From Actinomycetales bacterium (lineage in GTDB: Bacteria > Actinomycetota > Actinomycetes > Nanopelagicales > Nanopelagicaceae), in contig JAGWYO010000008.1 of assembly GCA_018969355.1 (NCBI GenBank), positions 1 through 49,318 on the forward strand: a DNA stretch of 49,318 nucleotides. The letters are read 5' to 3'. This document shows, one piece after another, positions 10-41,561 of the stretch; position 1 is the stretch's first letter; each line of letters opens with the position of its first letter. A program made the translations under genes and the position numbers. A model generated the notes under the pieces. It worked only from the letters and a program-made list of their open reading frames with translations. It was not told the DNA's origin and made no database searches.

Positions 10-630
10 ATGCTCAGTAAGCAAGAGTTCACCGCAACTTGGAGTTCGTTGCATAACGATGCCCCTGTTGCCGGCGCTGTTGCTTGGTGGCTCACTATCT
101 CCTATCGATTTGGTCTGGTTGCAACTTTGCTACGTATTTCACCTAACGTTCTCACGATGTGCGGTCTTGCTTCAGCTGTTGCCACAGCGCTAACTGCAAC
201 CTCATGGTGGGCAGTTGGTTTTCTCGTATTCTCTCTCTTTTGTGATGGTATTGATGGCAGTGTTGCGATATTTCAAAAGCGACAAAGTCCTTGGGGAGCA
301 ACCCTTGATTCAGTCGTTGATCGCGTTAGCGAAGCTCTCTGGCTCTATGCACTCTATGTCATCGGTGTGCCAGCATGGCTTGTTATCACTCTCTGGTGTG
401 TTGCTTCTTTCCAAGAATATGCACGCGCCAAGTTAGTCTCACTCGGTGTTAAAGATATCGGTGTTGTCACACCAGCAGAGCGTCCAGTGCGAGCATCGTT
501 TTTATTTGTAGTTTTGATTATGTGGCAGTTAAATCTTCCAGGAGTTTATGTGCTCTCTGTGGCATTCCTAGCACTTCAAATTAGTGGCTTTTTAATGGTT
601 GCCCGCTTTGCGCGCTCCCAATTGCATTAG
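10..630 (+). CDS. CDP-alcohol phosphatidyltransferase family membrane protein
   Basis: This is a 206-residue multi-pass membrane protein of the CDP-alcohol phosphatidyltransferase family, whose members transfer a phosphoalcohol from a CDP-linked donor at the membrane. The signature is visible at residues 79-104: D79-x2-D82-G83-x2-A86-x9-G96-x3-D100-x3-D104. The Arg that usually follows the Ala (position 87) is Ile here. An in-frame TAG at 4-6 just upstream fixes the start at or after position 10. The 3' end overlaps the convergent carotenoid desaturase gene by 50 bp. The acceptor is not deducible; it could make a phospholipid such as a phosphatidylinositol- or glycerol-phosphate type lipid. 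The family call is firm, the substrate unknown. Confidence 0.8.
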   Translation: MLSKQEFTATWSSLHNDAPVAGAVAWWLTISYRFGLVATLLRISPNVLTMCGLASAVATALTATSWWAVGFLVFSLFCDGIDGSVAIFQKRQSPWGATLDSVVDRVSEALWLYALYVIGVPAWLVITLWCVASFQEYARAKLVSLGVKDIGVVTPAERPVRASFLFVVLIMWQLNLPGVYVLSVAFLALQISGFLMVARFARSQLH

Positions 631-2095
631 CAACTATTTCTGCACTTAATCCAACTAATGGTAATCCGCCACCAGGATGGGCTGAACCTCCAACGCAATA
701 AAGATTTCTAATGGGTGAGCGATTCTTTGCGCGCATAAAGGCTGCGCGCGGGCCGTTACTGGAAGTTCCATAGATAGAACCACCTGGTGCACTAACAGCG
801 CTCTCTAAATCTGCAGGAGTTCTAATCGTCATAGATTCTAGTCGGGAGCGCACAGGTATCCCACGTGCTTCTATCTGATCAATAATGCTGTTGGCATAAG
901 TGCGTGCAAACTCTGCATTGTTCCAATCAAAGCCATGAGCGCCGTGGGCAGGTGCGTTCACTAGAACAAACCACCCTTCTAGATATTCATCCTTAGTCAT
1001 CGCATCATCGCCAGGAGCACAGATATAGATAGTGGGTTCTGTGACAGGCTGCTTGTGAGTAAATATCGCATCAAACTCTGCGTCATAGTCCTTAGGAAAT
1101 AGAACAGTGTGATGATTAAGTGGAGCTGATTCATCTTTACGCATGCCAAGAAGTAATGAAAAGCCAGCCAGTGAGGCATCAGCTTTCTCTAGATTCTTTC
1201 TAACCTTCTTAATCGTTCGGATTTTGCCGGTAATTAACTTGTTATAAATCAGTGATGCATCAGCATTTGCAATGACTGCATCGGCGTTAATAACTTCACC
1301 GTTTTCTAGAGTAATTCCAGTTGCTGTTCCTCTATTGACGTTAATTGATGCAACAGGGCAGTTCAGATGGAAAGTGACTCCTACTTTCTCTGCGCGCTCA
1401 TGCACCAGCGTTGCCAGCGTTCCAAGTCCGCCCTTGATATGCCAAGCTCCAAATGACTCTTCAACATAGGCAATTGTGGAAAGAACTGCAGGTGCTTTGC
1501 GCGGATCTGAGCCGCTATAGGTTGCATAGCGATCTAGGATGTATCGAAGATGTTCATCGACAAGTTCTTCGGTCGCAAAATCCCTCAGAGTTTTCCAAGG
1601 AGCAATAATCTTTAGATCTCTTATGAGGGAGAATCGCTTGAACAATGAAAACGGTGAACGTAGTTCATTTTCAATAAAAGGCTCGCGAGAAACATCCCAC
1701 ATCTTCTCAGCTCTGCGCATCAGTTGATCCCATTGGCGGGAAACAGATTCCCCATAGGCTGTGCGCAGATTATTGAGAGTGTGATACCTAGAAAGATTTG
1801 CAAAATTAACGGTTGTGCCATCATTAAATCGATACTCAAATGATGGATCAACCGCCTGAATCTGACAGAGCAGTCCAAGATGTTTGCCAGTTCGTTGAAA
1901 GAAATCTTTATACACAGCCGGCAGAGTTAAAAGTGAGGGGCCAGTATCAAAGGCAACTTTGCCAATCCACTCAGTGTGAAGTTTTCCTCCCACACGATCT
2001 GATGCCTCATAGAGACTAACTTCATGTCCAGCTTTAGCCAAACGTGCAGCTGACATCATCCCGCCCATGCCGGCGCCGATTACAACTATTTTCAT
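581..2095 (-). CDS. CrtI/CrtD-like carotenoid desaturase (FAD-dependent)
   Basis: This 504-residue FAD-dependent oxidoreductase belongs to the phytoene desaturase family. It opens with a Rossmann dinucleotide-binding motif (G7-x-G9-x2-G12) followed by an acidic strand end and RVGGK, and ends with the family's FAD-contacting segment G-G-S-A-H-P-G-G-G-L-P. The start is the ATG at 2095: it overlaps the upstream glycosyltransferase stop as ATGA, and a longer reading from 2137 adds 14 residues ahead of the FAD motif with no purpose. It sits beside CruF-like, CrtA-like and glycosyltransferase genes, so a CrtD-type role (3,4-desaturation of a 1-hydroxy-carotenoid) is as likely as phytoene desaturation. 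The 3' end overlaps the convergent gene on the other strand. Confidence 0.85.
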   Translation of the reverse strand: MKIVVIGAGMGGMMSAARLAKAGHEVSLYEASDRVGGKLHTEWIGKVAFDTGPSLLTLPAVYKDFFQRTGKHLGLLCQIQAVDPSFEYRFNDGTTVNFANLSRYHTLNNLRTAYGESVSRQWDQLMRRAEKMWDVSREPFIENELRSPFSLFKRFSLIRDLKIIAPWKTLRDFATEELVDEHLRYILDRYATYSGSDPRKAPAVLSTIAYVEESFGAWHIKGGLGTLATLVHERAEKVGVTFHLNCPVASINVNRGTATGITLENGEVINADAVIANADASLIYNKLITGKIRTIKKVRKNLEKADASLAGFSLLLGMRKDESAPLNHHTVLFPKDYDAEFDAIFTHKQPVTEPTIYICAPGDDAMTKDEYLEGWFVLVNAPAHGAHGFDWNNAEFARTYANSIIDQIEARGIPVRSRLESMTIRTPADLESAVSAPGGSIYGTSSNGPRAAFMRAKNRSPIRNLYCVGGSAHPGGGLPLVGLSAEIVANAIGSAQSGQPLKSH

Positions 2096-3165
2096 AGCGT
2101 GCGGCCCTTCCATTGCAGCTGCCCACGCATTAACCATGAGTAAATGATTAAGTAGATAAGCAGTGCTGATGAAAGGGGATGTACAAACGCATCCACACCG
2201 TTCTTACCGGTTTTAATTGAACTCATTGCACGGGTGAGAGTAACTGCGGCATAGGCATACCAAGCTAGATATGAACCATTCATGCCAGCGATAAGGGGAG
2301 CCATACCTGTAAGAAAAATGAATGCGATTGCAAGTGCAGAACCAAAAACAGAACCAAAAGCTGCATGCAAAGATTTTCCGTAGCCTGATTGGATTTGGTT
2401 CCATGATGAATACATACGAGTGGATGCAATTGCTGCGCCATTTGCCACACAGCCATGTGAACCTTGTTTGACAAGAGCCCTTGCTAATTCGACATCATCT
2501 AAAACTTTGTTGCTAACGCAGTGATAGCCACCAACTTGAGCAAGGGCTGCCCGCCTAACAATAAAGAATTGGCCATTTGCCACAACCATGGAAGTGCGAG
2601 AGCTTTTCTCGGCAAAGCGCAAGATAACTGTGGACATCCACGACCATTGCAGCAGCGGTTGAATGAGTTTTTCTGACCAAGTATGTGCAAGCTGAGCCGG
2701 ATAAGGGGAGAGAAAATCTAGCTGTGTTCTCTTGAGTAATCTGACTGCTCTACATATCGCATCTGGCACTAATCTCACATCAGCATCAATGGATACGATG
2801 ATTTCACCGCTTGATTTCTCATAAAGTTGTTGCAACGCCCAGGTTTTACCAATCCACCCCTGTGGCAGCGTGGATCCACTCAATACATGAAAGTTGGACA
2901 GCCCAGTAGTGTGTTGGTGCAAGAGAGTAAGAGTGCCATCTTCAGAATTATCATCTAGAAACAAAAACTCAACGTTAGTCAAGTTCTGTTGAGTGCGAAG
3001 TGAGTTAACAAGTTCGGCAACATTTGGCGCCTCATTGCGCATCGGAACAACTACTGAGATTGCATCTCCTATTTGGATTATTTCATCTGGTGTACGAATG
3101 GTGAGAAAGTTGATTAAGGAGATTAAAAAGATCAGCCCTGCTGGAATTACTACTAGGTAATCCAT
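2092..3165 (-). CDS. Family 2 glycosyltransferase, CruG-like carotenoid glycosylase
   Basis: This 357-residue protein is a membrane-anchored GT-A glycosyltransferase. It has an N-terminal transmembrane helix (about 3-22), the sugar-nucleotide strand ISVVVPMRNE (36-45), a DxD metal motif D127-A-D129 and a later acidic pair D223-D224 where the catalytic base usually lies. Two or three hydrophobic helices follow at the C-terminus. The stretch P-Q-G-W-I-G-K-T-W-A after the first domain is typical of the carotenoid glycosyltransferases related to CruG and CrtQ. It lies five bases downstream of the CruF-like gene and overlaps the desaturase by four bases, which supports glycosylation of a carotenoid hydroxyl. 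The sugar donor is unknown. Confidence 0.75.
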   Translation of the reverse strand: MDYLVVIPAGLIFLISLINFLTIRTPDEIIQIGDAISVVVPMRNEAPNVAELVNSLRTQQNLTNVEFLFLDDNSEDGTLTLLHQHTTGLSNFHVLSGSTLPQGWIGKTWALQQLYEKSSGEIIVSIDADVRLVPDAICRAVRLLKRTQLDFLSPYPAQLAHTWSEKLIQPLLQWSWMSTVILRFAEKSSRTSMVVANGQFFIVRRAALAQVGGYHCVSNKVLDDVELARALVKQGSHGCVANGAAIASTRMYSSWNQIQSGYGKSLHAAFGSVFGSALAIAFIFLTGMAPLIAGMNGSYLAWYAYAAVTLTRAMSSIKTGKNGVDAFVHPLSSALLIYLIIYSWLMRGQLQWKGRTL

Positions 3166-3170
3166 GGAAT

Positions 3171-3974
3171 CTAAGGGCGTCCTAACCAGCGGTTAAAGAA
3201 ATAAGGGGCAAGGACTACCCCAAAAATCCCTCCTGCAAAAAAGGCAATGCCTGGGCGGCCAAAGAAGAACAAGTTGCCGACAAAGCCTGAGAACAAAGTC
3301 CACAATAAAAATACATCGGTCGTGAGAAAAGTTGCTCCACTCTTTCGCTTATCTCGTGGGGTAATTAGGTGCAAAACGCCAATTAAGAACATTCCACTGA
3401 GTAACCAACCAAAAGTATTCGATAAAGGAATCTCGGGTTGGAACGGAACATGCGCGCCAGAAACCACCCATGTCCAATTACCCTGTGCCACCATGAGTGG
3501 ATCTAGAAACAAATCCCATGCAGCAAGGACAACTGCGCCGTAGAGGAATACCCAATTACCTGCAATGCGACGGGCCGCAGTTAAAACTGGGTGGGCCATC
3601 ATGATCCAAGCAAACGGGACAACTAGCGGAACTTCAACAATCATTAGCCCTAAATTGCCAGAGTATGAATAACTACCAAAAGGCCATTGGGTTAAGACTC
3701 CAATATGTTCGATCGTCAGAGCGAAGGAGAACGTGAAGAGGAAATAGGTAATGGCGTAGCGAGTGCCATATGCCAGGAATGCATGGAACAACATTGCCCC
3801 TGCGCCCCAATAAACAACATTGATGGTGAGCAATCGCAATATCTCACCATCAACTAATGGATAGAGGACTTGAAGCAAGATCGCGATGCCAACTACAGAG
3901 TTTAATAAGCCCTTCACTCGAGGTGATAACTGCCCGTGGCGGCGCCGTCGTGGAACATAATGACGGATTGACAT
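3171..3974 (-). CDS. cruF: CruF-like carotenoid 1,2-hydratase (carotenoid biosynthesis membrane protein)
   Basis: This is a 267-residue integral membrane protein with about seven hydrophobic helices after a basic N-terminus rich in Arg and His. The conserved segments E-H-I-G-V-L-T-x-W-P-F-G-x-Y and A-A-W-D-L-F-L-D-P match the CruF/bisanhydrobacterioruberin hydratase family (DUF422 type), which adds water across the terminal 1,2 double bond of acyclic carotenoid ends. Its product would give the hydroxyl that the neighbouring glycosyltransferase can use. It lies in the same minus-strand run, 26 bp after the CrtA-like gene and 5 bp before the glycosyltransferase. The family assignment is from remembered motifs; the exact substrate is inferred. 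Confidence 0.8.
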   Translation of the reverse strand: MSIRHYVPRRRRHGQLSPRVKGLLNSVVGIAILLQVLYPLVDGEILRLLTINVVYWGAGAMLFHAFLAYGTRYAITYFLFTFSFALTIEHIGVLTQWPFGSYSYSGNLGLMIVEVPLVVPFAWIMMAHPVLTAARRIAGNWVFLYGAVVLAAWDLFLDPLMVAQGNWTWVVSGAHVPFQPEIPLSNTFGWLLSGMFLIGVLHLITPRDKRKSGATFLTTDVFLLWTLFSGFVGNLFFFGRPGIAFFAGGIFGVVLAPYFFNRWLGRP

Positions 3975-4000
3975 GGCTTAAGTCTGCCCTAAAAGCCTTC

Positions 4001-4657
4001 CTAACTATTAATCGAACCGCGAATATCTTTGAGCGCAAAGCGTGCAAAGAGCTCTTCTGAATACCATCTATGGATAGTTGTGTCTGCAATCGCCTTTTGG
4101 TGGGCTGGGCCTTTATATGCAAAGTTCTTAATGGCCGCCCCAGTGTCCCAAAGTGAAAAAGTTCCCTGTAAACCAATAGGGGCTTCACCAATTCCTATGG
4201 CAGAGATCAAGCCAGGTGCTGATTTCAATGACAGTGTCACAGGTGGCACAGAGCTCCAAAAGCGAAAGTTTTGATGCCACTTAATGCGCGCTCGAGTAAT
4301 TGCTGCGACAGGTCCATCCCAATCTTGTGCCGTTGCAATAAATGGTTCCTGTTTAGCCCACTGACCATGGGAAGAGATTGGTTCAAGAACGGCACGAAAT
4401 TCACTGACACTATTTTTGCGCCATTGCTTCACAACAAATGAGTGATCAAAGGACTCGATATCATGCACGTGTGCAATCAAACCCCAGCGCAAAGCGTTGG
4501 CATCAGAAGGTGTGAAAGTCTCACCTTTACCAGTCCCCAATGATTTAAAAAAGCCGACATTTCTCGAGCGACGCAAAACAAAACGATCCATCCCCATAGC
4601 AACTAGTGCAAAAGGAATTCGACTTGGAGTAATTGTCCAGAAGTAGGCAACAATCAT
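4001..4657 (-). CDS. CrtA-like (spheroidene monooxygenase-family) carotenoid oxygenase
   Basis: This 218-residue soluble protein resembles the spheroidene monooxygenase (CrtA) family, which introduces keto groups into acyclic carotenoids. Recognisable pieces are the R-R-S-R-N-x-G-F-F-K-x-L-G-T-G-x-G-E-T-F-T-P segment near residue 30-50, the ITRARIK strand, and near the C-terminus AIGIGEAPIGLQGTFSLW followed by FAYKGPAH and RWYSEELFARF. These match the actinobacterial branch of the family. The ATG follows the previous gene's TAA directly. Context in a carotenoid operon supports the call. It would supply oxygenation of the end product; whether it makes a ketone or hydroxyl, and at which carbon, cannot be read from the sequence. 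Confidence 0.75.
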   Translation of the reverse strand: MIVAYFWTITPSRIPFALVAMGMDRFVLRRSRNVGFFKSLGTGKGETFTPSDANALRWGLIAHVHDIESFDHSFVVKQWRKNSVSEFRAVLEPISSHGQWAKQEPFIATAQDWDGPVAAITRARIKWHQNFRFWSSVPPVTLSLKSAPGLISAIGIGEAPIGLQGTFSLWDTGAAIKNFAYKGPAHQKAIADTTIHRWYSEELFARFALKDIRGSINS

Positions 4658-4900
4658 TTAAAACCAGCGAATCATTCCAATAATGCCAGCTGCTGCATAG
4701 AAGAACTGCAGAAAGAGAATTCCTTTGTGCTTGCCAAGAAATGCCCAAATGCCAATAAGGGCAGAGGATGTCAGAAGCAATGTGAAACCAATGAATTCAG
4801 CTCCAATATTTGCTGCAACTAGAAGTGAGTAAAGGATTGCAGTTGCAACACCTAGCCACTCAAAAATCTTTGCCTTAGCGGCATTACTATTTCTGTTCAA
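4658..4900 (-). CDS. Small three-helix membrane protein of unknown function
   Basis: This 80-residue protein is not recognised with certainty. After a short polar N-terminus (about 12 residues) it has three closely spaced hydrophobic helices (about 14-30, 35-53 and 60-79) with a G-K-H-K-G loop between the second and third and an R-W-F end. It overlaps the VOC gene by 14 bp and abuts the CrtA-like gene with no gap, so it is almost surely co-translated with the carotenoid genes. The compact helix pattern is a little like a fragment of a PnuC-type fold, but that is only an impression. Confidence 0.65.
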   Translation of the reverse strand: MNRNSNAAKAKIFEWLGVATAILYSLLVAANIGAEFIGFTLLLTSSALIGIWAFLGKHKGILFLQFFYAAAGIIGMIRWF

Positions 4901-5270
4901 TTAAATCCCACTTATTCCCATATTTGTCTTTGAAAACCACCACTTGACCATAGGCCTCTTGGCGCGCAGTTTCAATGAACTCAATGCCTTTAGATTTATA
5001 GCCCTCGTAAGTTTCATTAAAGTTGGTTGTATACATAAAAAACCCCACGCGGCCACCTGTTGCATTACCTATCGCTGCCACCTGTGCTTCATTAGCTGCC
5101 TTTGCCAGCAGTATTCGAGCACCTTGTGAGCTAGGTGCTACTACTACCCAGCGCTTTTCAGGCGATAGGACTGTGTCTTCAATGAGGTTGAATCCAAGAT
5201 CATTGACGTAGTGAGAAATTGCTGCGTCATAGTCATCAATGACAATTGTAATCATTCCTAAAGTGTTCAT
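4887..5270 (-). CDS. VOC-superfamily (glyoxalase/bleomycin-resistance fold) protein
   Basis: This 127-residue protein has the vicinal-oxygen-chelate fold: two beta-alpha-beta-beta-beta repeats, the first beginning M-I-T-I-V-I-D-D-Y-D-A-A-I-S-H-Y and the second ending in F-K-D-K-Y-G-N-K-W-D-L-I-E. The terminal E in the last strand matches a metal ligand position of the family. VOC members range from isomerases and dioxygenases to binding proteins, so no reaction can be named. It overlaps both neighbours (4 bp with the upstream membrane protein gene, 14 bp with the downstream one), which puts it in the carotenoid transcription unit. Confidence 0.8.
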   Translation of the reverse strand: MNTLGMITIVIDDYDAAISHYVNDLGFNLIEDTVLSPEKRWVVVAPSSQGARILLAKAANEAQVAAIGNATGGRVGFFMYTTNFNETYEGYKSKGIEFIETARQEAYGQVVVFKDKYGNKWDLIEQK

Positions 5271-5692
5271 AACTTGTCAGGCCCCGTGGGTTTTGAAACC
5301 TTTGCCTCACTTGTGTTTTTCGATTGGGACTTCAAGATTCCATAAAATGCAGCCGTAATCACAAATGCGGGGATAGTGTTCCAACGCTCATTTGCGCTTC
5401 GAGATGCTGCATTGGCAAGAATTCCTAACAGACCGAGAATGACAAAGGCTTTAACTATCCATTTCGGCTTAATTGCTTTGCCGTAAGAGAAGCGAGTGAA
5501 GATTACTACTTGATAAAGGATTAGGGAAAAATTCAGAATATAAACCAGTCGTATATAAGTTGGAAAAATCTCAAATTGACCACCAGCTGCGCGATCAAGT
5601 GCGTAAGAAGCACCCAGAATGACACCACCCACTAGATATAGGTTCCAGGCAAAAGAGGCAAAAACTGCAGTTACAAAAGTTTTGTTCCGCAT
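5267..5692 (-). CDS. Hypothetical four-helix membrane protein
   Basis: This 141-residue protein is not recognised. It has four hydrophobic segments (about 8-30, 45-66, 80-98 and 107-122) separated by short basic or polar loops, and ends in a charged, Lys- and Ser-rich tail of about 20 residues. It overlaps the VOC gene start by 4 bp (ATGA) and starts 4 bp after the YbaK-type gene ends. That places it between general-metabolism genes and the carotenoid genes, probably as part of one transcript. The number and spacing of the helices are the only functional clue. Confidence 0.65.
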   Translation of the reverse strand: MRNKTFVTAVFASFAWNLYLVGGVILGASYALDRAAGGQFEIFPTYIRLVYILNFSLILYQVVIFTRFSYGKAIKPKWIVKAFVILGLLGILANAASRSANERWNTIPAFVITAAFYGILKSQSKNTSEAKVSKPTGPDKL

Positions 5693-10521: not shown

Positions 10522-10797
10522 ATGACACAGGTCAATCCCGCCCACGATGTCACCATCGATGGTGCAACAACGCCTATTGAATTCACCTTTAAGGGCCGGC
10601 GCTTTCGCATTCATGCAGTCTTATCCAGATGGTGTGAAGCAGGCGGTTGGTGGAATCGCATTAGCGATGGCAAGTACAGACCGGATGATCAAGCCCGTGC
10701 GCTGTGGCGCGTGGAGGCTGCGCCCATTGGGGCCTTAACAACATTTGAATTAGAGCGCGATGAAGTTAGCGGTCAATGGATTATCCGTAACGTATGA
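10522..10797 (+). CDS. DUF6504-family protein of the mutagenesis operon
   Basis: This 91-residue protein matches a small actinobacterial family found next to dnaE2 and Y-family polymerase genes (DUF6504, from memory). It shows P-I-E-F-T-F-K-G-R-R-F-R-I near residue 18-30, then S-R-W-C-E-A-G-G-W-W and A-L-W-R-V-E-A, ending G-Q-W-I-I-R-N-V. The ATG at 10522 is used because upstream in-frame starts would put the LexA box inside the coding region. It overlaps dnaE2 by 4 bp (ATGA), so the two are coupled. Its molecular role is not established; a link to translesion synthesis is inferred from position. Confidence 0.75.
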   Translation: MTQVNPAHDVTIDGATTPIEFTFKGRRFRIHAVLSRWCEAGGWWNRISDGKYRPDDQARALWRVEAAPIGALTTFELERDEVSGQWIIRNV

Positions 10798-13700
10798 GCT
10801 TTATTCACCTCAACGTTGCCAGTGCTTATTCACTCAAATACGGCACAACACAACCAGCTGATTTAGTAGAACGCGCTGCTGCTTTTGAGATGCCGGCGCT
10901 GGCATTAACTGATCGTGATGGTTTAGCCGGTGCAATTCGCTTTGCGCAAAGCTGTGTTGATTGTGGTATCGCGCCAATTATTGGAGTCAATCTGGCAGTT
11001 GATATGGGTGGCAGTAATAATCGCCTGACTCTTTTGGCACATAGTGATGGGGGATGGCGCTCGCTATGTAGGTTGCTGACATCTCTGGCAATGACAAGTG
11101 ATAACCGCAATCTGGTTCTGACCCTTGATTTCTTACAACGCTTTAGCCATTACAGCACTAACGTCTATGCCCTGCATGGACCACACTCGCTAGTGGGCTC
11201 ACTCATTACCGATAATCGCATTGATGCAGCTTTCACCGCCTTTAATCAAACCCGTGATTTATTTGCAGATAATGCCATTGAATGTGTTTCACATCTTGTG
11301 GCGGGTAAAGGTGCGCGCTCCACATCCCATGCGGCAAAATCCTTAATTTTCGCCCGTGATCACGATATTGATGCCGTCATCACTAACGCAGTTCGCATGC
11401 GCGATAGGGCCGATGGCCCTCTAGCAGATGTTTTAGATTGCGCTCGCCAGCTAGTGCCGTTGCATCCGCGCCATATCGAGCGACACAATGCTGAAGGCTT
11501 TTTAAAATCAAGTGATGAAATGATTTCACTGGCCGGTGAAATTGCACGGGCTGCAGGGGAGCGAACACCACGGCAATTACTAGCAACAACGCGTGCATGG
11601 GCAGAGCGCTCTTTGTTATCTCCTCAGCGCGATATTGGTTTAGGTGGTGCCCATCTACCTGAAGCCCATGTGGTGGGGGCAGATTCAGCTCATGAAATGC
11701 GCGTATTGCTGCGCACTCGCAGTGAAGCTGCAATTAACTGGCGCTATAGCGATAGCGCGATGATTAAAAAAGCTCGCACACGCCTTGATGATGAGCTATC
11801 AACAGTTGCAACCCTTGGCTTTGAATCATATTTTTTAACTGTTGCCGATATCTGTGACATGGCACGTGGTGCTGGTATTCGAGTTGCAGCACGGGGAAGC
11901 GGTGCAGGTTCCTTGATCTGCCACTTACTTGGAATCTCAGGCGTTGATCCACTACAACATGGTCTATTGATGGAGCGCTTTTGCTCACCGCTGCGCGCAG
12001 CTTTGCCCGATATTGATATTGATGTTGAATCACATAGACGACTTGAAATCTATGACATGGTTTTTAAACGCTATGGCAATACTGATTGGGATGTGCCGGG
12101 TAATCAATCTCGATGTGCAACCGTTGCCATGGTTGATACATACCGGGCTCGTCATGCAATACGAGATGCAGGGGCAGCGCTGGGTTTACCTGGCATGGAG
12201 ATTGATATGTTGGCAAAGTCGATGCCACATGTGAGAGCACGCAATATCTCAAAAACCCTAGAGAACTTACCTGAGCTGCGCTGCCTTAATATCTCTGCGC
12301 CATTAACTGCAATGACAATTGCACTAGCTGAACGGTTAGATGCTTTGCCACGGCATCTATCAATGCATCCATGCGCCATTGTTTTATCTGATGGCGGTTT
12401 GCTTGATCGCACACCACTTCTTTCTAATGCCAGTGGCTATCCCATGGTGGTCTTTGATAAAGATGATGTTGAGGCTATTGGCTTATTAAAACTCGATGTC
12501 TTGGGCGTGAGGATGCAGTCGGCAATCTCTTATGCGCTCACTGAGATAGAGCGCACGGAAAATCTCAGCGTTGATATCGATACCGTGCCCTTAGATGATC
12601 CTGATACTTATGCCTTAATTCAATCCACCAATACTTTAGGTTTGTTTCAAATTGAATCTCCGGGACAGCGCGAACTTGTTGGAAAGTTAGAACCTCAAAC
12701 ATTTACTGATTTGATTATTGATATCTCACTCTTTCGACCAGGGCCAGTGAAATCAGACATGATTACGCCCTTTTTAAAGGCCCGTCATGGCTGGGCTAAA
12801 GCCCAAATCATTCACCCAGATCTCTATGAGATTTTGCGCGATACCGAAGGCGTTGTTGTCTTCCATGAACAGGTCATTGAAATCATTGCAACGATGACAG
12901 GGGTCTCACTAGCTAGCGCTGATGAAAAGCGGCGGGCGTTGGGGGACAAGGTGGGCCAACAAGAAGTCTGTGATTGGTTCTTTCCTGCTGCAACGGCCAA
13001 AGGTTATGAGCTGCCTATCATTCATGAGATCTGGGAAGTTCTGCGCGCCTTTGCATCCTTTGGTTTTTGTAAAGCACACGCTGCAGCTTTTGCCCTGCCC
13101 ACCTATCAATCAGCCTGGCTTAAAACTCATTACCCAGCAGCTTTTTTAGCTGGTGTGCTCACACATGATCCAGGGATGTATCCAAGGCGTTTAATCGTTG
13201 ATGAAGTGCGACAGATGGGGCTAAAGGTTGCACCCCTTGATATCAATGAATCTGATGCGCTCTATCGTGTGGAAGAAAATGGCAGTGCCGTTCGTATTGC
13301 ACTCTCCACTATTACAAAGATTAGCGATGGAGAAGTTGCATCGATTATTGCTGGGCGGCCCTATATTGATTTAACTGATTTTGTGCGCCGCTCTGGGTGC
13401 AGCGCACCTGTTACCGAAAGTGCAATCTTGACGGGTGCATTTGATCGCTTGCATACCGATGTTAATCGCCGTGATTTGCTACTGCATTTTTCTGATCTGC
13501 AGAAATCACCTAACGCGGGGGTAACAGGAGCGCAGATGAATTTAGCTTTTGCGCCTCCCGCATTAATGAGCAGTGGCCTACCTGATATGAGTCCTGCTGA
13601 AATAGTTGAACATGAAATAGCGCGATTAGGTATTGATATGTCTGAGCACTTAGTGAGCTTTTATAGCGATTTTCTCAACTCTATCGGCGCCGTGCGCTCC

Positions 13701-14021
13701 TGTGATTTACTGGCCCAGCGTTCGCGCTCTTCGGTATTAGTTGCTGGTATAAAAGTTGCGATGCAAACCCCGCCGGTGCGAAGTGGAAAGCGCGTCATCT
13801 TTGTAAGCCTGGATGATGGCTATGGATGTAGTGATTCAACTTTCTTTAGCGATACCCAAGGCGATTTTGCCAGTACCCTCTATTCCTCATCCCTGCTACT
13901 CATTCGTGGCATTACCCGGCGCACAGGGGCCCGCGGTATTTCACTACGGGCAACGGGTGCATGGGATTTACGCGCGGCCTATGAATCATGGCGCACAAAA
14001 GAAAGTACGCTGGCAATATGA
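10794..14021 (+). CDS. dnaE2: Error-prone DNA polymerase III alpha subunit DnaE2
   Basis: This 1075-residue C-family polymerase performs damage-induced translesion synthesis. It has an N-terminal PHP-type domain, the catalytic palm motif P-D-I-D-I-D (D406, D408, D410), finger segments such as F-G-F-C-K-A-H-A-A-A-F and a helix-hairpin-helix region. The PHP motifs are degraded (H-L-N where H-x-H is usual, T-D-R-D-G for T-D-H-D-G), so it probably lacks proofreading or phosphoesterase activity. Q-M-N-L-A-F at about 914 resembles a beta-clamp binding peptide. It is shorter than the replicative DnaE1 at 38064. The start overlaps DUF6504 (ATGA), and dinB follows with another ATGA overlap, all under the LexA box. 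Confidence 0.9.
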   Translation: MSFIHLNVASAYSLKYGTTQPADLVERAAAFEMPALALTDRDGLAGAIRFAQSCVDCGIAPIIGVNLAVDMGGSNNRLTLLAHSDGGWRSLCRLLTSLAMTSDNRNLVLTLDFLQRFSHYSTNVYALHGPHSLVGSLITDNRIDAAFTAFNQTRDLFADNAIECVSHLVAGKGARSTSHAAKSLIFARDHDIDAVITNAVRMRDRADGPLADVLDCARQLVPLHPRHIERHNAEGFLKSSDEMISLAGEIARAAGERTPRQLLATTRAWAERSLLSPQRDIGLGGAHLPEAHVVGADSAHEMRVLLRTRSEAAINWRYSDSAMIKKARTRLDDELSTVATLGFESYFLTVADICDMARGAGIRVAARGSGAGSLICHLLGISGVDPLQHGLLMERFCSPLRAALPDIDIDVESHRRLEIYDMVFKRYGNTDWDVPGNQSRCATVAMVDTYRARHAIRDAGAALGLPGMEIDMLAKSMPHVRARNISKTLENLPELRCLNISAPLTAMTIALAERLDALPRHLSMHPCAIVLSDGGLLDRTPLLSNASGYPMVVFDKDDVEAIGLLKLDVLGVRMQSAISYALTEIERTENLSVDIDTVPLDDPDTYALIQSTNTLGLFQIESPGQRELVGKLEPQTFTDLIIDISLFRPGPVKSDMITPFLKARHGWAKAQIIHPDLYEILRDTEGVVVFHEQVIEIIATMTGVSLASADEKRRALGDKVGQQEVCDWFFPAATAKGYELPIIHEIWEVLRAFASFGFCKAHAAAFALPTYQSAWLKTHYPAAFLAGVLTHDPGMYPRRLIVDEVRQMGLKVAPLDINESDALYRVEENGSAVRIALSTITKISDGEVASIIAGRPYIDLTDFVRRSGCSAPVTESAILTGAFDRLHTDVNRRDLLLHFSDLQKSPNAGVTGAQMNLAFAPPALMSSGLPDMSPAEIVEHEIARLGIDMSEHLVSFYSDFLNSIGAVRSCDLLAQRSRSSVLVAGIKVAMQTPPVRSGKRVIFVSLDDGYGCSDSTFFSDTQGDFASTLYSSSLLLIRGITRRTGARGISLRATGAWDLRAAYESWRTKESTLAI

Positions 14022-15208
14022 GTGAAGAAAACGCTACCCAGGCCACCATTCTTCATGTGGATATGGATGCATTTTTTGCCTCCGTGGCAGAGCGCGATAA
14101 CCCAGAGTTAAAGGGAAAGGCCGTTGTTATTGGCATGGGAGCGCGCGGTGTTGTCTCTGCAGCTAACTATGAAGCGCGCAAATTTGGTATTCACTCAGCG
14201 ATGCCAGTGGGGCGTGCTCGTCGATTAGCACCGCATGCAATCTTTTTACCTGTTGATATGGCACGCTATCAAGAAGTATCAGGACATGTCATGGAGATCT
14301 TTCATAGTTTCACGCCCTGGGTTGAACCGATTTCCTTAGATGAAGCTTTTCTAGATGTGACCGGTTCACAAAAGCTGCTGGGCACAGGACGTGAAATCGC
14401 AGTTGCTATTCGAAAAAAAGTAGAGGAGCAAGAAGGCATTACCTGTTCAGTCGGCATCGCACCTTCTAAGTTCATTGCAAAGTTAGCATCAGCTAACTGC
14501 AAACCTAATGGGATGCTGGAGATAACAGCCGATCGTATTCTGACCTTTTTACATCCTCTTCCTATTCAAGCGATGTGGGGAGTGGGACCAAAGACGGCAG
14601 AAGTTCTAGAACGACTCGGGCTAAGAACGATTGAAGATATTGCACAGCTGCCGCGGGCTACACTCATCAGAGCGTTGGGTGAAGCAAACGGTGCATCTTT
14701 ATATGAACTTGCATGGGGCCGCGATTATCGAGATGTCACACCAGAAGAACCTGATCGTAGTATCAGTGCAGCAGAGACATTCCCGCAGGATCTAGATAAT
14801 CCAGAAGAGATAGTGACTGAGTTTTTGCGATTAACCGAGAGAGCAACTGCCAGATTGCGCGATCGTAATTTATTTGCAAAGACAATAAGTATCAAAGTGC
14901 GCTTTGCTGATTTTTCAACGATTAATCGCAGCAAGACTTTGCCACTTGCCATCGATAGCACCCATGATGTTTATGAAGTGGTGAAGGGGCTCTATCAAGC
15001 ACTTCACATTGAGCGGGCCCGACTGCGTCTTGTGGGGATCTCTCTGGAGAATTTGAGTGAAGGCGCACCTCATCAAATGATGCTGGGTGAGCGCGAAGTT
15101 GGCTGGCGCCAAGCAGAAGAGGCGATGGATCAAGCCCGTGCGCGATTTGGTAAGGGCTCTGTGCGTCCTGCCCGCCTGATAAGTGCCAGTGAAGATGATA
15201 AGGATTAG
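14018..15208 (+). CDS. dinB: Y-family DNA polymerase IV (DinB)
   Basis: This 396-residue Y-family polymerase carries intact catalytic residues: D15 in H-V-D-M-D-A-F-F and D108-E109 in S-L-D-E-A-F-L-D. Palm, fingers, thumb (helix-hairpin-helix around W-G-V-G-P-K-T) and little-finger domains are all present. The ATG at 14018 overlaps the dnaE2 stop as ATGA, like the upstream junction; a longer reading from 13988 is possible but less likely. Actinobacterial DnaE2 usually works with ImuA'/ImuB, where ImuB is catalytically dead. Here the partner gene encodes what looks like an active Pol IV and no imuA is present. Confidence 0.9.
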   Translation: MSEENATQATILHVDMDAFFASVAERDNPELKGKAVVIGMGARGVVSAANYEARKFGIHSAMPVGRARRLAPHAIFLPVDMARYQEVSGHVMEIFHSFTPWVEPISLDEAFLDVTGSQKLLGTGREIAVAIRKKVEEQEGITCSVGIAPSKFIAKLASANCKPNGMLEITADRILTFLHPLPIQAMWGVGPKTAEVLERLGLRTIEDIAQLPRATLIRALGEANGASLYELAWGRDYRDVTPEEPDRSISAAETFPQDLDNPEEIVTEFLRLTERATARLRDRNLFAKTISIKVRFADFSTINRSKTLPLAIDSTHDVYEVVKGLYQALHIERARLRLVGISLENLSEGAPHQMMLGEREVGWRQAEEAMDQARARFGKGSVRPARLISASEDDKD

Positions 15209-38063: not shown

Positions 38064-41000
38064 ATGACTTCTGAAAATTTCGTACATCTGCACGTCCATA
38101 CCGAGTATTCAATGCTCGATGGCGCAGCGCGAGTGCCCGATTTAATGCAAGAAGTCGTAAGGCAGGCCATGCCGGCTATTGCAATTACTGATCATGGAAA
38201 TGTTTTTGGTGCCTACGAATTTTACAAGGCGGCAAATAAAGCTGGTGTGAAACCAATTATTGGAATTGAAGCTTATGTAGCCCCAGAATCACGCTTTGAT
38301 AAAAAGAGAGTGCAATGGGCAAGCGGTGGTGAAGATGATGTTTCAGGTGGTGGTGCTTATACACACATGACTATTTTGGCTGAGAATAATGTTGGACTAG
38401 GTAATCTTTTTCGACTTTCATCTCTTGCATCTCTTGAAGGTTATTACTACAAGCCCCGCATGGATCGAGAACTCCTTGCTCAATTTTCCAAGGGTTTAAT
38501 AGCAACTACTGGTTGTCCTGGAGGAGAGATCCAAACTCGCTTGCGCATGGGTGCATATAAAGAGGCGATTAAGGCTGCAAGTGATTATCGAGATATTTTC
38601 GGTGAGGGCAATTTCTTTTTAGAAATTATGGATCATGGTATTGAGATTGAAAACCGCGTAAAGGATGACCTGCTCAAACTTGGCAAAGAATTAGGCCTTC
38701 CACTCCTTGCTACCAATGATTTGCACTACACCTTACAAGCAGATTCTGGTGCGCATGAGGCATTACTGTGTGTTCAATCAGGCTCTACGTTGGCAGATCC
38801 CAAACGATTCAAATTTGATAACGACTCTTTCTATGTTAAAACTCCTGCGCAAATGCGAGAGCTCTTTAAAGATATTCCAGAGAGTTGCGATAACACATTA
38901 CTTATTGCCGAGCGCTGTGATGTGACTATGCGAGAAGGTGAAAATCTTCTTCCACAATTTAGTGTTCCAGCCGGAGAGACTGAAGATTCATGGCTTAAGA
39001 AAGAAGCTGTTCGCGGAATGAAAGAGCGTTTAGGGGACAAGCTCACTCCTGCACATGAATCTCGCCTTGATTACGAACTTGGCGTGATGGAGAAGATGGG
39101 TTTTCCTGGTTACTTCCTTGTTGTTGCCGACTTAGTTGGGCATGCAAAGAAAGTTGGTATTCGAGTTGGACCAGGTCGAGGATCAGCTCCAGGTTCACTG
39201 GTTGCCTATTCACTTGGTATTACTGGATTAGATCCACTAGAGCACGGACTTTTGTTCGAGCGCTTTCTTAATCCAGAACGTATTTCTATGCCTGATATCG
39301 ACTTGGACTTTGATGAGCGTCGACGCAGCGAAATGATTCGTTATGCAACTAATAAATATGGTGAAGATCGAGTTGCTCAGATCATTACCTACGGAACCAT
39401 TAAATCAAAGCAAGCAATTAAAGATTCAACTCGCGTTCTTGGTTATCCCTATGTCATTGGTGAGAAATTGACAAAAGCTTTGCCACCTTCAGTGATGGGT
39501 AAAGATATATCCCTTGGTGGAATATTTGACCCTAAAGATGATCGATATGGCGAAGCGGGTGAGTTCCGATCACTCTATGAATCAGATCCAGATTCAAAGC
39601 GCGTTGTTGACACCGCGCGTGGTTTAGAGGGATTAAAGCGCCAGTGGGGTGTTCACGCAGCTGGAGTTATTCTCTCTCGTGAACCATTACTCGATGTCAT
39701 TCCTATTCATCGCCGTGAAGCAGATGGGGCAATCATTACCCAGTTTGATATGGGTGCATGTGAATCTATCGGACTTCTCAAGATGGACTTCTTAGGTCTT
39801 CGCAATCTCTCGGTCTTAGATGATGCTCTACTTAATATTAAAGAAAATCAAAATATTGAAGTTGTGCTAGAGGATTTAGCACTCGATGATAAGAAAACTT
39901 ATGAACTGCTCTCACGAGGCGACACTCTTGGTGTGTTCCAGCTCGATGGTGGACCCATGCGCGCCTTGCTTAAATCAATGTCACCGGATTCTTTTGAAGA
40001 TATTTCTGCAGTGATCGCTCTTTATCGCCCAGGCCCAATGGGGGAAAATGCCCATAACAACTATGCCGATCGCAAAAATAAGCGCAAGCCCGTCGAGCCT
40101 ATTCATCCAGAGCTTTCCGAACCATTACAAGAGATTCTTGGTGACACATACGGCCTGATTGTTTATCAGGAACAAGTGATGGCAATTGCCCAAAAAGTTG
40201 CTGGTTTCTCACTGGGACGCGCGGATCTATTGCGCAAAGCCATGGGTAAGAAGAATAAAGATATTTTGGATAAGGAATACATTCCTTTTGAAGCTGGAAT
40301 GAAAACTAATGGTTTCTCAACCGCTGCGATCAAACGCTTATGGGATGTGCTTATTCCATTTTCTGATTACGCCTTTAACCGTGCGCACTCTGCAGGTTAT
40401 GGAGTTGTTTCATATTGGACTGCCTACTTAAAGGCTAACTATCCAACTGAATACATGGCTGCGCTACTTACTAGTGTTCGAGATGATAAAGATAAATCTG
40501 CCTTGTATCTGAGCGAATGCCGCCGAATGGGCATCAAAGTCTTGCCACCTGATGTTAATGAATCCAATGGTGAATACACACCACGAGGAAAAGATATTCG
40601 ATTTGGCCTTGCCGCGATTAGAAATGTTGGTGAAGGTGTTGTTGCGTCAATTAAAGCTGCGCGTGAGAGAAAAGGTCGTTTCACATCCTTTGGTGATTTC
40701 TTAGCAAAGGTTGATGCGCAGGTGTGTAATAAGAAAACTATAGAATCTTTGATTAAGGCGGGAGCATTTGGCTCTCTTGGGGCAACTCGTAAGGGCTTGA
40801 TTGCAGTTCACTTGGAGGCAATTGATTCAGTTATCGAGAGCAAGCGCGCTGAAGCAATAGGTCAATTTGATCTATTTGGCGGGGAAGCAATAACCGAAGT
40901 TTCAGGGTTAGATATTGAGATTCCATCGGGTGAGTGGGATAAGGCAATGCTGCTTAGCTATGAGCGCGAGATGCTGGGTCTCTATGTTTCAGATCATCCA

Positions 41001-41561
41001 CTCTTAGGTGTTGAACATGTACTGCGAGCAAGCACGGATATGTCTATCAGCGAATTAGTTGATGAAGGTGCACAGCATGAATCTGTTGTCACTATTGGAG
41101 GTCTCATCACAAGTGTTACTCGTAAAGTTTCACGACAAGGTGCTTCATGGGCTGTTGTCACTCTCGAAGATCTTGAAGGATCTCTAGAAGTTCTTTTCTT
41201 CTCAAATACTTACAACCAATACTCACTGTCCTTGACAGAAGATCGCATTGTGACAGTTCGCGGTCGCGTTGATCGCCGTGAAGAGAATCTGCGATTTACA
41301 GCCATTGAGATGTTGATGCCAGATATTTCTGCAGGACCAACAGGTCCATTAGTAATTTCACTTCCAATGTCTCAATGCACACCACCTGTGGTTGATCGCA
41401 TCAAAGAAGTATTGCGTTCGCATCCTGGCAAACGTGAAGTACATCTGTCTTTGGGCGAAAATGGAAGCAGCACCGTTATGAAAATTGATGCATCCGTCAC
41501 AGCTTCTCCATCATTGAGCGCAGATCTCAAATCTATTCTTGGGCCTCACTGTCTGGTTTAA
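38064..41561 (+). CDS. dnaE1: Replicative DNA polymerase III alpha subunit DnaE1
   Basis: This 1165-residue C-family polymerase replicates the chromosome. The PHP domain is intact (H-L-H-V-H-T-E-Y-S and I-T-D-H-G-N), so built-in proofreading of the actinobacterial DnaE1 type is possible. The palm motif P-D-I-D-L-D holds D411, D413 and D415. Q-F-D-L-F at 934-938 is a good beta-clamp binding peptide, and an OB-fold follows near the C-terminus (V-T-I-G-G-L-I-T-S). TAATCT lies nine bases before the ATG, and no Shine-Dalgarno is seen, so a leaderless start is possible. Confidence 0.96.
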   Translation: MTSENFVHLHVHTEYSMLDGAARVPDLMQEVVRQAMPAIAITDHGNVFGAYEFYKAANKAGVKPIIGIEAYVAPESRFDKKRVQWASGGEDDVSGGGAYTHMTILAENNVGLGNLFRLSSLASLEGYYYKPRMDRELLAQFSKGLIATTGCPGGEIQTRLRMGAYKEAIKAASDYRDIFGEGNFFLEIMDHGIEIENRVKDDLLKLGKELGLPLLATNDLHYTLQADSGAHEALLCVQSGSTLADPKRFKFDNDSFYVKTPAQMRELFKDIPESCDNTLLIAERCDVTMREGENLLPQFSVPAGETEDSWLKKEAVRGMKERLGDKLTPAHESRLDYELGVMEKMGFPGYFLVVADLVGHAKKVGIRVGPGRGSAPGSLVAYSLGITGLDPLEHGLLFERFLNPERISMPDIDLDFDERRRSEMIRYATNKYGEDRVAQIITYGTIKSKQAIKDSTRVLGYPYVIGEKLTKALPPSVMGKDISLGGIFDPKDDRYGEAGEFRSLYESDPDSKRVVDTARGLEGLKRQWGVHAAGVILSREPLLDVIPIHRREADGAIITQFDMGACESIGLLKMDFLGLRNLSVLDDALLNIKENQNIEVVLEDLALDDKKTYELLSRGDTLGVFQLDGGPMRALLKSMSPDSFEDISAVIALYRPGPMGENAHNNYADRKNKRKPVEPIHPELSEPLQEILGDTYGLIVYQEQVMAIAQKVAGFSLGRADLLRKAMGKKNKDILDKEYIPFEAGMKTNGFSTAAIKRLWDVLIPFSDYAFNRAHSAGYGVVSYWTAYLKANYPTEYMAALLTSVRDDKDKSALYLSECRRMGIKVLPPDVNESNGEYTPRGKDIRFGLAAIRNVGEGVVASIKAARERKGRFTSFGDFLAKVDAQVCNKKTIESLIKAGAFGSLGATRKGLIAVHLEAIDSVIESKRAEAIGQFDLFGGEAITEVSGLDIEIPSGEWDKAMLLSYEREMLGLYVSDHPLLGVEHVLRASTDMSISELVDEGAQHESVVTIGGLITSVTRKVSRQGASWAVVTLEDLEGSLEVLFFSNTYNQYSLSLTEDRIVTVRGRVDRREENLRFTAIEMLMPDISAGPTGPLVISLPMSQCTPPVVDRIKEVLRSHPGKREVHLSLGENGSSTVMKIDASVTASPSLSADLKSILGPHCLV

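Follow-up and report, generated by a model that had tools for sequence, protein, structure and literature searches.

The 49,318-nucleotide window analyzed here (GenBank assembly GCA_018969355.1, contig JAGWYO010000008.1, our contig C5) carries a four-gene carotenoid-tailoring cassette on its minus strand, and with moderate confidence we assign to this cassette the synthesis of a phleixanthophyll/sioxanthin-type carotenoid glycoside by the steps proposed below. The window belongs to a 1.40-Mb draft genome of 83 contigs that is 95% complete. The four genes encode a CrtD-like 1'-hydroxycarotenoid 3',4'-desaturase of 504 amino acids (positions 581 to 2095), a CruG-like family 2 glycosyltransferase (2092 to 3165), the carotenoid 1,2-hydratase CruF (3171 to 3974), and a CrtA relative that is predicted to be a heme-dependent carotenoid 2'-hydroxylase (4001 to 4657). 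The crtD open reading frame (ORF) opens at 2137, and an ATG at 2095, just before the flavin adenine dinucleotide motif, overlaps the stop codon of the glycosyltransferase gene (ATGA); because of this overlap, 2095 is most likely the start. An earlier note, made from the sequence alone, had described four adjacent minus-strand carotenoid genes with these family resemblances, and profile searches agreed with it. The interval that it gave extended to 5692, and only the part from 581 to 4657 held up. The remainder (4658 to 5692) contains an 80-amino-acid ORF, a gene for a glyoxalase-family protein, and a 141-amino-acid ORF, which had no carotenoid family matches in the profile search, are patchily present, and were therefore rejected as cassette members.

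From these genes we infer each reaction, the order of the reactions, the identity and placement of the sugar, and the function of the pigment as follows. The cassette would tailor the acyclic end of a carotene supplied by adjoining crtE-crtI-crtB genes and a lycopene cyclase. CruF would hydrate the 1',2' bond to give a 1'-hydroxyl group, CrtD would introduce a double bond at 3',4', the CrtA relative, acting as a heme monooxygenase, would place one oxygen on C-2' (as a hydroxyl rather than a keto group), and the CruG-like glycosyltransferase would attach a hexose, most likely to the 1'-oxygen. The predicted product is a glycoside of the phleixanthophyll type (C46H66O7, 730.4809 Da) whose beta ring bears no substituent, i.e., the beta-ring counterpart of sioxanthin, and we take this structure to be phleixanthophyll. 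Such a glycoside would likely serve as a polar, membrane-spanning antioxidant and photoprotectant. At the broader level of product class, we hold with fair confidence that a carotene is converted into an oxygenated, glycosylated end product, as the earlier note had also predicted.

The cassette is real, is conserved widely among actinobacteria, and is made of known enzyme kinds, with nothing categorically new. The named CrtA matches, which are the best 80 of at least 520 confirmed candidates, come mostly from freshwater or lake metagenome-assembled genomes and include Candidatus Planktophila lacus, a record titled acI-Phila, and strains IMCC26103 and IMCC26077, which we take to be acI. An acI-type freshwater actinobacterium, which the earlier note had guessed, is thus a fitting assignment for the organism. 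Seven loci (L062, L064, L070, L073, L081, L098, and L132) are titled Bifidobacterium breve, Clavibacter, or Fonsibacter; their crtA regions look acI-like, and the titles seem wrong. A crtA gene was found in 40 of 60 genomes of relatives (own genome counted), in 31 of the 37 genomes of its genus, and in 27 of 28 genomes of its family; for the class as a whole, the count was 113 of 296. A script tallied gene order at loci with at least 4.2 kb available downstream of crtA (i.e., with room). Among the 80 named loci read, 55 had room, and 54 of these carried cruF, the glycosyltransferase gene, and crtD downstream of crtA on the same strand, the exception being a Blastococcus record. Of 40 loci picked by hand outside the family, 38 had room, and all three genes followed in 36; the two misses are L210, where cruF is nonetheless visible, and L233, where the genes are present in a different order. 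A second set from outside the family had nine loci, six with room, of which three carried all three genes; the misses are L034 (no crtD in range), L036 (none of the three), and L041 (different order). When both sets were pooled, the three genes lay downstream of crtA in 39 of 44 loci. The carotenoid genes of Nonomuraea (L234) likewise stand in another order. The recurrence of one gene order in many genomes across the class shows that the cassette is not a chance arrangement. An incomplete literature search found no description of it in acI, and we do not claim that it is undescribed.

The earlier note reported no crtE, crtB, or cyclase gene; this is correct for the window but not for the genome, in which the search that the note had suggested found all of them. 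Positions 5 to 147 of the window, a feature without strand, are identical (143 of 143, by blastn of contig ends) to positions 1 to 143 of contig C26 on the opposite strand. Contig C26 carries crtE (244 to 1320; PF00348, 176.3 bits), crtI (1321 to 2805; TIGR02734, 536.3 bits), crtB (2806 to 3678; PF00494, 224.3 bits), and, on the strand opposite these three, two lycopene cyclase ORFs that represent subunits (TIGR03462, 54.6 and 59.8 bits; cut-off, 39.4). The core genes of a sioxanthin/phleixanthophyll-type pathway are therefore present, and because positions 5 to 147 match the end of the contig that bears them, their absence from the window is a contig-end effect. A cluster without a precursor pathway was accordingly rejected. 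In the single-contig relative G015, the order is unbroken and runs crtA-cruF-glycosyltransferase-crtD, a CDP-alcohol phosphotransferase gene on the other strand, crtE-crtI-crtB, and the cyclase subunits on the other strand.

Profile searches, which the earlier note had proposed as a check, placed the four proteins in the expected families, although all four missed curated equivalog cut-offs. CruF exceeded the PF04240 (Caroten_synth) cut-off (108.9 versus 25 bits), and the glycosyltransferase exceeded that of PF00535 (73.1 versus 23.3 bits) and we file it no more narrowly than as a CruG-like member of family 2. The desaturase passed the CrtI/CrtD family model TIGR02734 (298 versus 238.1 bits), as only crtI and crtD do in this genome, and its best score among all models (336.1 bits) was with the CrtD equivalog NF045637. 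Since C26 has its own crtI (536 bits), this protein is read as CrtD-type, which narrows the CrtI/CrtD-like label of the earlier note, and a role as phytoene desaturase is unlikely.

The CrtA relative matched the CrtA/CrtA-OH family (NF045923, 155.3 bits, E = 1.5e-45). It had no Pfam match at an E value of 0.001, and the best hit in a PDB sequence search with the CrtA profile had an E value of 0.58. Purple-bacterial CrtA is described as an enzyme other than a P450, with a 5-coordinated heme and a need for O2 and reduced ferredoxin (PMC10604819). An AlphaFold2 model (mean pLDDT, 89.9) gave its best structural match to heme aldoxime dehydratase over the whole length (Z = 13.7, 209 residues, root mean square deviation of 3.6, 7% identity), and the next different protein reached a Z of 9.0 over 100 residues. 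His186 is the only histidine invariant in the CrtA alignment (64 of 64 sequences, including three ketolases and a Deinococcus protein). Local profile alignment against two dehydratase sequences (E = 0.014 in one comparison, probability of 3%) placed His186 on a dehydratase-family histidine that is presumably the heme ligand of aldoxime dehydratase; global alignment of the profiles yielded no result. His186 is thus predicted as a candidate heme ligand, and the fold and ligand together are testable for the CrtA family.

Whether the oxygen on C-2' would be a hydroxyl or a keto group depends on this protein. In a 64-protein CrtA tree, which holds no proven hydroxylase, three Rhodobacterales proteins annotated as spheroidene monooxygenase group together (100/100), and a 100/97 branch parts 57 rows, including all acI proteins, from seven, i.e., the three Rhodobacterales ketolases and the proteins of Deinococcus, Nonomuraea, L233, and L041. 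This separation is suggestive only, but a 2'-hydroxylase is probably the better reading of the CrtA relative, since it clusters with proteins from actinobacteria and not with the three annotated purple-bacterial ketolases, and since myxol and sioxanthin, the known products of such gene sets, bear a 2'-hydroxyl. That group is part of the myxol structure. CrtA of Bacteroidetes is likewise said in a comparative study to act as a hydroxylase (PMC2889829). Purple-bacterial CrtA, the spheroidene ketolase, introduces a 2-keto group into acyclic carotenoids (PMC10604819), and it shares with our protein the family, 33 to 36% sequence identity to its annotated members, and the invariant His186; NF045923, a ketolase model, is moreover the sole NCBIfam match. 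These likenesses would fit a true ketolase that acts in two rounds at C-2' to yield a glycosyl xanthophyll with a 2'-keto group (C46H64O7, 728.47 Da), whose conjugated carbonyl would shift its absorption to the red. We consider this unlikely in view of the branch that separates the acI proteins from the three ketolases, even though three actinobacterial proteins and one Deinococcus protein lie on the ketolases' side, and in view of the 2'-hydroxyl in products of comparable sets. A CrtA relative (L239:7878-8663), annotated as hypothetical, was seen on a Deinococcus taeanensis plasmid without an annotated carotenoid gene nearby.

The glycosyltransferase raises two other alternatives. The hexose could sit on the 2'-oxygen, as in the myxoxanthophyll type made with cyanobacterial CruG, instead of the 1'-oxygen; CruG, a 2'-O-glycosyltransferase, is indeed the best NCBIfam match (NF045692, 140 bits), but this score is far under the cut-off of 600 and moderately above that for the HpnB model (118.1 bits; cut-off, 379), and the glucose of sioxanthin is reported at 1' (PMC8469146), although homology to the Salinispora enzyme is not presumed. 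Attachment at 2' therefore seems possible but rather doubtful. With the protein almost as near to hopanoid-associated HpnB, and with the CrtA fold falling in a broad monooxygenase superfamily, the glycosyltransferase and the CrtA relative might also act on other lipids and be mere neighbors of cruF and crtD. However, their order with cruF and crtD is kept across the class, beside the core genes, and we give this idea almost no credence.

Several points weigh against the assignment of the cassette to a phleixanthophyll/sioxanthin-type pathway. CruF scored below every equivalog cut-off (TIGR03460, 92.5 versus 154.7 bits; NF041333, 53.3 versus 300; NF045693, 41.5 versus 400), the glycosyltransferase below that of the CruG equivalog, the desaturase below that of NF045637 (580), and the CrtA relative below that of the NF045923 spheroidene ketolase equivalog (300), so that it is not filed as a spheroidene monooxygenase. 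The CrtA model was built from 40 close sequences, and Foldseek E values rank other ferredoxin-like monooxygenases ahead of the dehydratase, with TM-scores of 0.31 to 0.44 in ranks 1 to 12 versus 0.56 for aldoxime dehydratase. The likeness to Salinispora sioxanthin and to flavobacterial CrtA-OH is one of products and descriptions, and the product is a prediction from genes. The lycopene cyclase could close both ends of the carotene and leave no acyclic end. Finally, a 4-keto ring in place of the unsubstituted one is possible, given an ORF on contig C13 (L163:877-2391) that encodes a 504-amino-acid flavoprotein whose best NCBIfam model is the CrtO ketolase (94.9 bits; cut-off, 1000).

We take the beta ring as unsubstituted because the genome profile search found no PF04116 (CrtZ-type) or PF00487 (CrtW-type) match, at 95% completeness, and because no gene besides crtI and crtD exceeds the CrtI-family cut-off. 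The assignment supplies exact masses to seek in acI pigments. The 591.49 m/z carotenoid reported from strain IMCC13023 (PMC8113403) was considered as the aglycone and set aside, as the sodium adduct is expected at 591.417, which is too far away, and the strain is of another lineage.

Comparable systems are known from several groups. Sioxanthin of the actinomycete Salinispora is described as a 1'-glucosyloxy-2'-hydroxy-3',4'-didehydro compound (PMC8469146), which is the same end group as predicted here (1'-glycosyloxy, 2'-hydroxy, 3',4'-didehydro); it differs in its aromatic phi ring, and no CrtU-type enzyme was identified in this genome. Nearly all Micromonospora genomes are reported to have the sioxanthin cluster, and some of them crtA (PMC5765111). 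In the flavobacterium Nonlabens spongiae, CruF, CrtD, and CrtA-OH were assayed in Escherichia coli and jointly modify the psi end, as proposed here, in a cluster that makes myxol; that cluster, in contrast, has crtZ, and the abstract of the report mentions no glycosyltransferase (PMC11855829). Salinixanthin of Salinibacter and Rhodothermus is likewise a monocyclic glucoside, a hydroxylated form included, and serves xanthorhodopsin in Salinibacter, but its ring is 4-keto and its sugar bears an acyl chain; unlike in this cassette, homologues of CruF and CrtA were not found by the authors in R. marinus, and phleixanthophyll enters their report solely as a hydroxylated form from Nocardia kirovani (PMC5822342).

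The earlier note had speculated that the pigment could be a rhodopsin antenna and had suggested a search for rhodopsin genes. The genome has one rhodopsin, whose nearest PDB entries are 9hfk (labelled bacteriorhodopsin), psXR, Gloeobacter Gll0198, xanthorhodopsin, and Kin4B8, and it has the fenestration glycine. Rhodopsin matches occurred in 31 of 60 genomes of relatives, and the glycine, aligned with xanthorhodopsin Gly156, was present in 20 of 20 rhodopsins read. A pigment that mainly harvests light for the cell's actinorhodopsin, as salinixanthin does for xanthorhodopsin, would agree with this relationship, with the joint prevalence of the two genes within the family in the class sample (crtA in 27 of 28 genomes, rhodopsin in 25 of 28), with the native carotenoid reported bound to an actinorhodopsin of another lineage (PMC8113403), and with the distant CrtO-like protein on C13. 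In contrast, crtA is not associated with rhodopsin outside the family, where rhodopsin exceeded the cut-off in 7 of 86 crtA-positive and 11 of 182 crtA-negative genomes (Fisher P = 0.60; about 5 of the 86 crtA matches are weak, and crtA-positive G123, with a rhodopsin match under the cut-off, is left out of the 7). Two family genomes of 98 to 99% completeness (G236 and G296) retain crtA without a rhodopsin match, and known antenna carotenoids are described as 4-keto or, in Kin4B8, ring-hydroxylated (PMC13093654), whereas no CrtZ- or CrtW-type match exists here. The lack of association outside the family weakens the view of the cassette as a rhodopsin accessory; the antenna stays speculation, and we think it improbable as the main role. 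The profile search found no match for blh (PF15461) in this genome; such matches occurred in 17 of 37 genomes of the genus, and the single-contig genomes G014 and G015 have crtA and rhodopsin without one.

Convergent with crtD lies a plus-strand CDP-alcohol phosphotransferase gene (10 to 630; PF01066, 50.1 bits), one of four such genes in the genome, the others matching PgsA (118.8 bits, over its cut-off), cardiolipin synthase (200.2 bits, below 240), and PIP synthase (172.3 bits, over 170). Relative to crtA, a gene of this kind is encoded on the opposite strand in 58 of 80 named loci and 23 of 40 class loci, and wherever the motif DxxDGxxAR is readable in these neighbors, I, V, L, M, or A takes the place of its Arg, with L203 as the sole exception; the window gene, too, lacks the Arg. 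It is a conserved neighbor, and its link to the pathway may be plain neighborhood, since in Planktophila lacus metF (TIGR00676, 312.7 bits, over the cut-off) follows it on the same strand. That the glycoside is not the end product, and that the phosphotransferase adds a phospho-alcohol group to give a phosphorylated carotenoid glycolipid with a phospholipid-like anchorage, appears very improbable. Elsewhere in the window (10794 to 14021, 13988 to 15208, and 38064 to 41561), a second DnaE-type polymerase (651 bits, below the cut-off) was seen beside DNA polymerase IV; the main DnaE scores 1511 bits.

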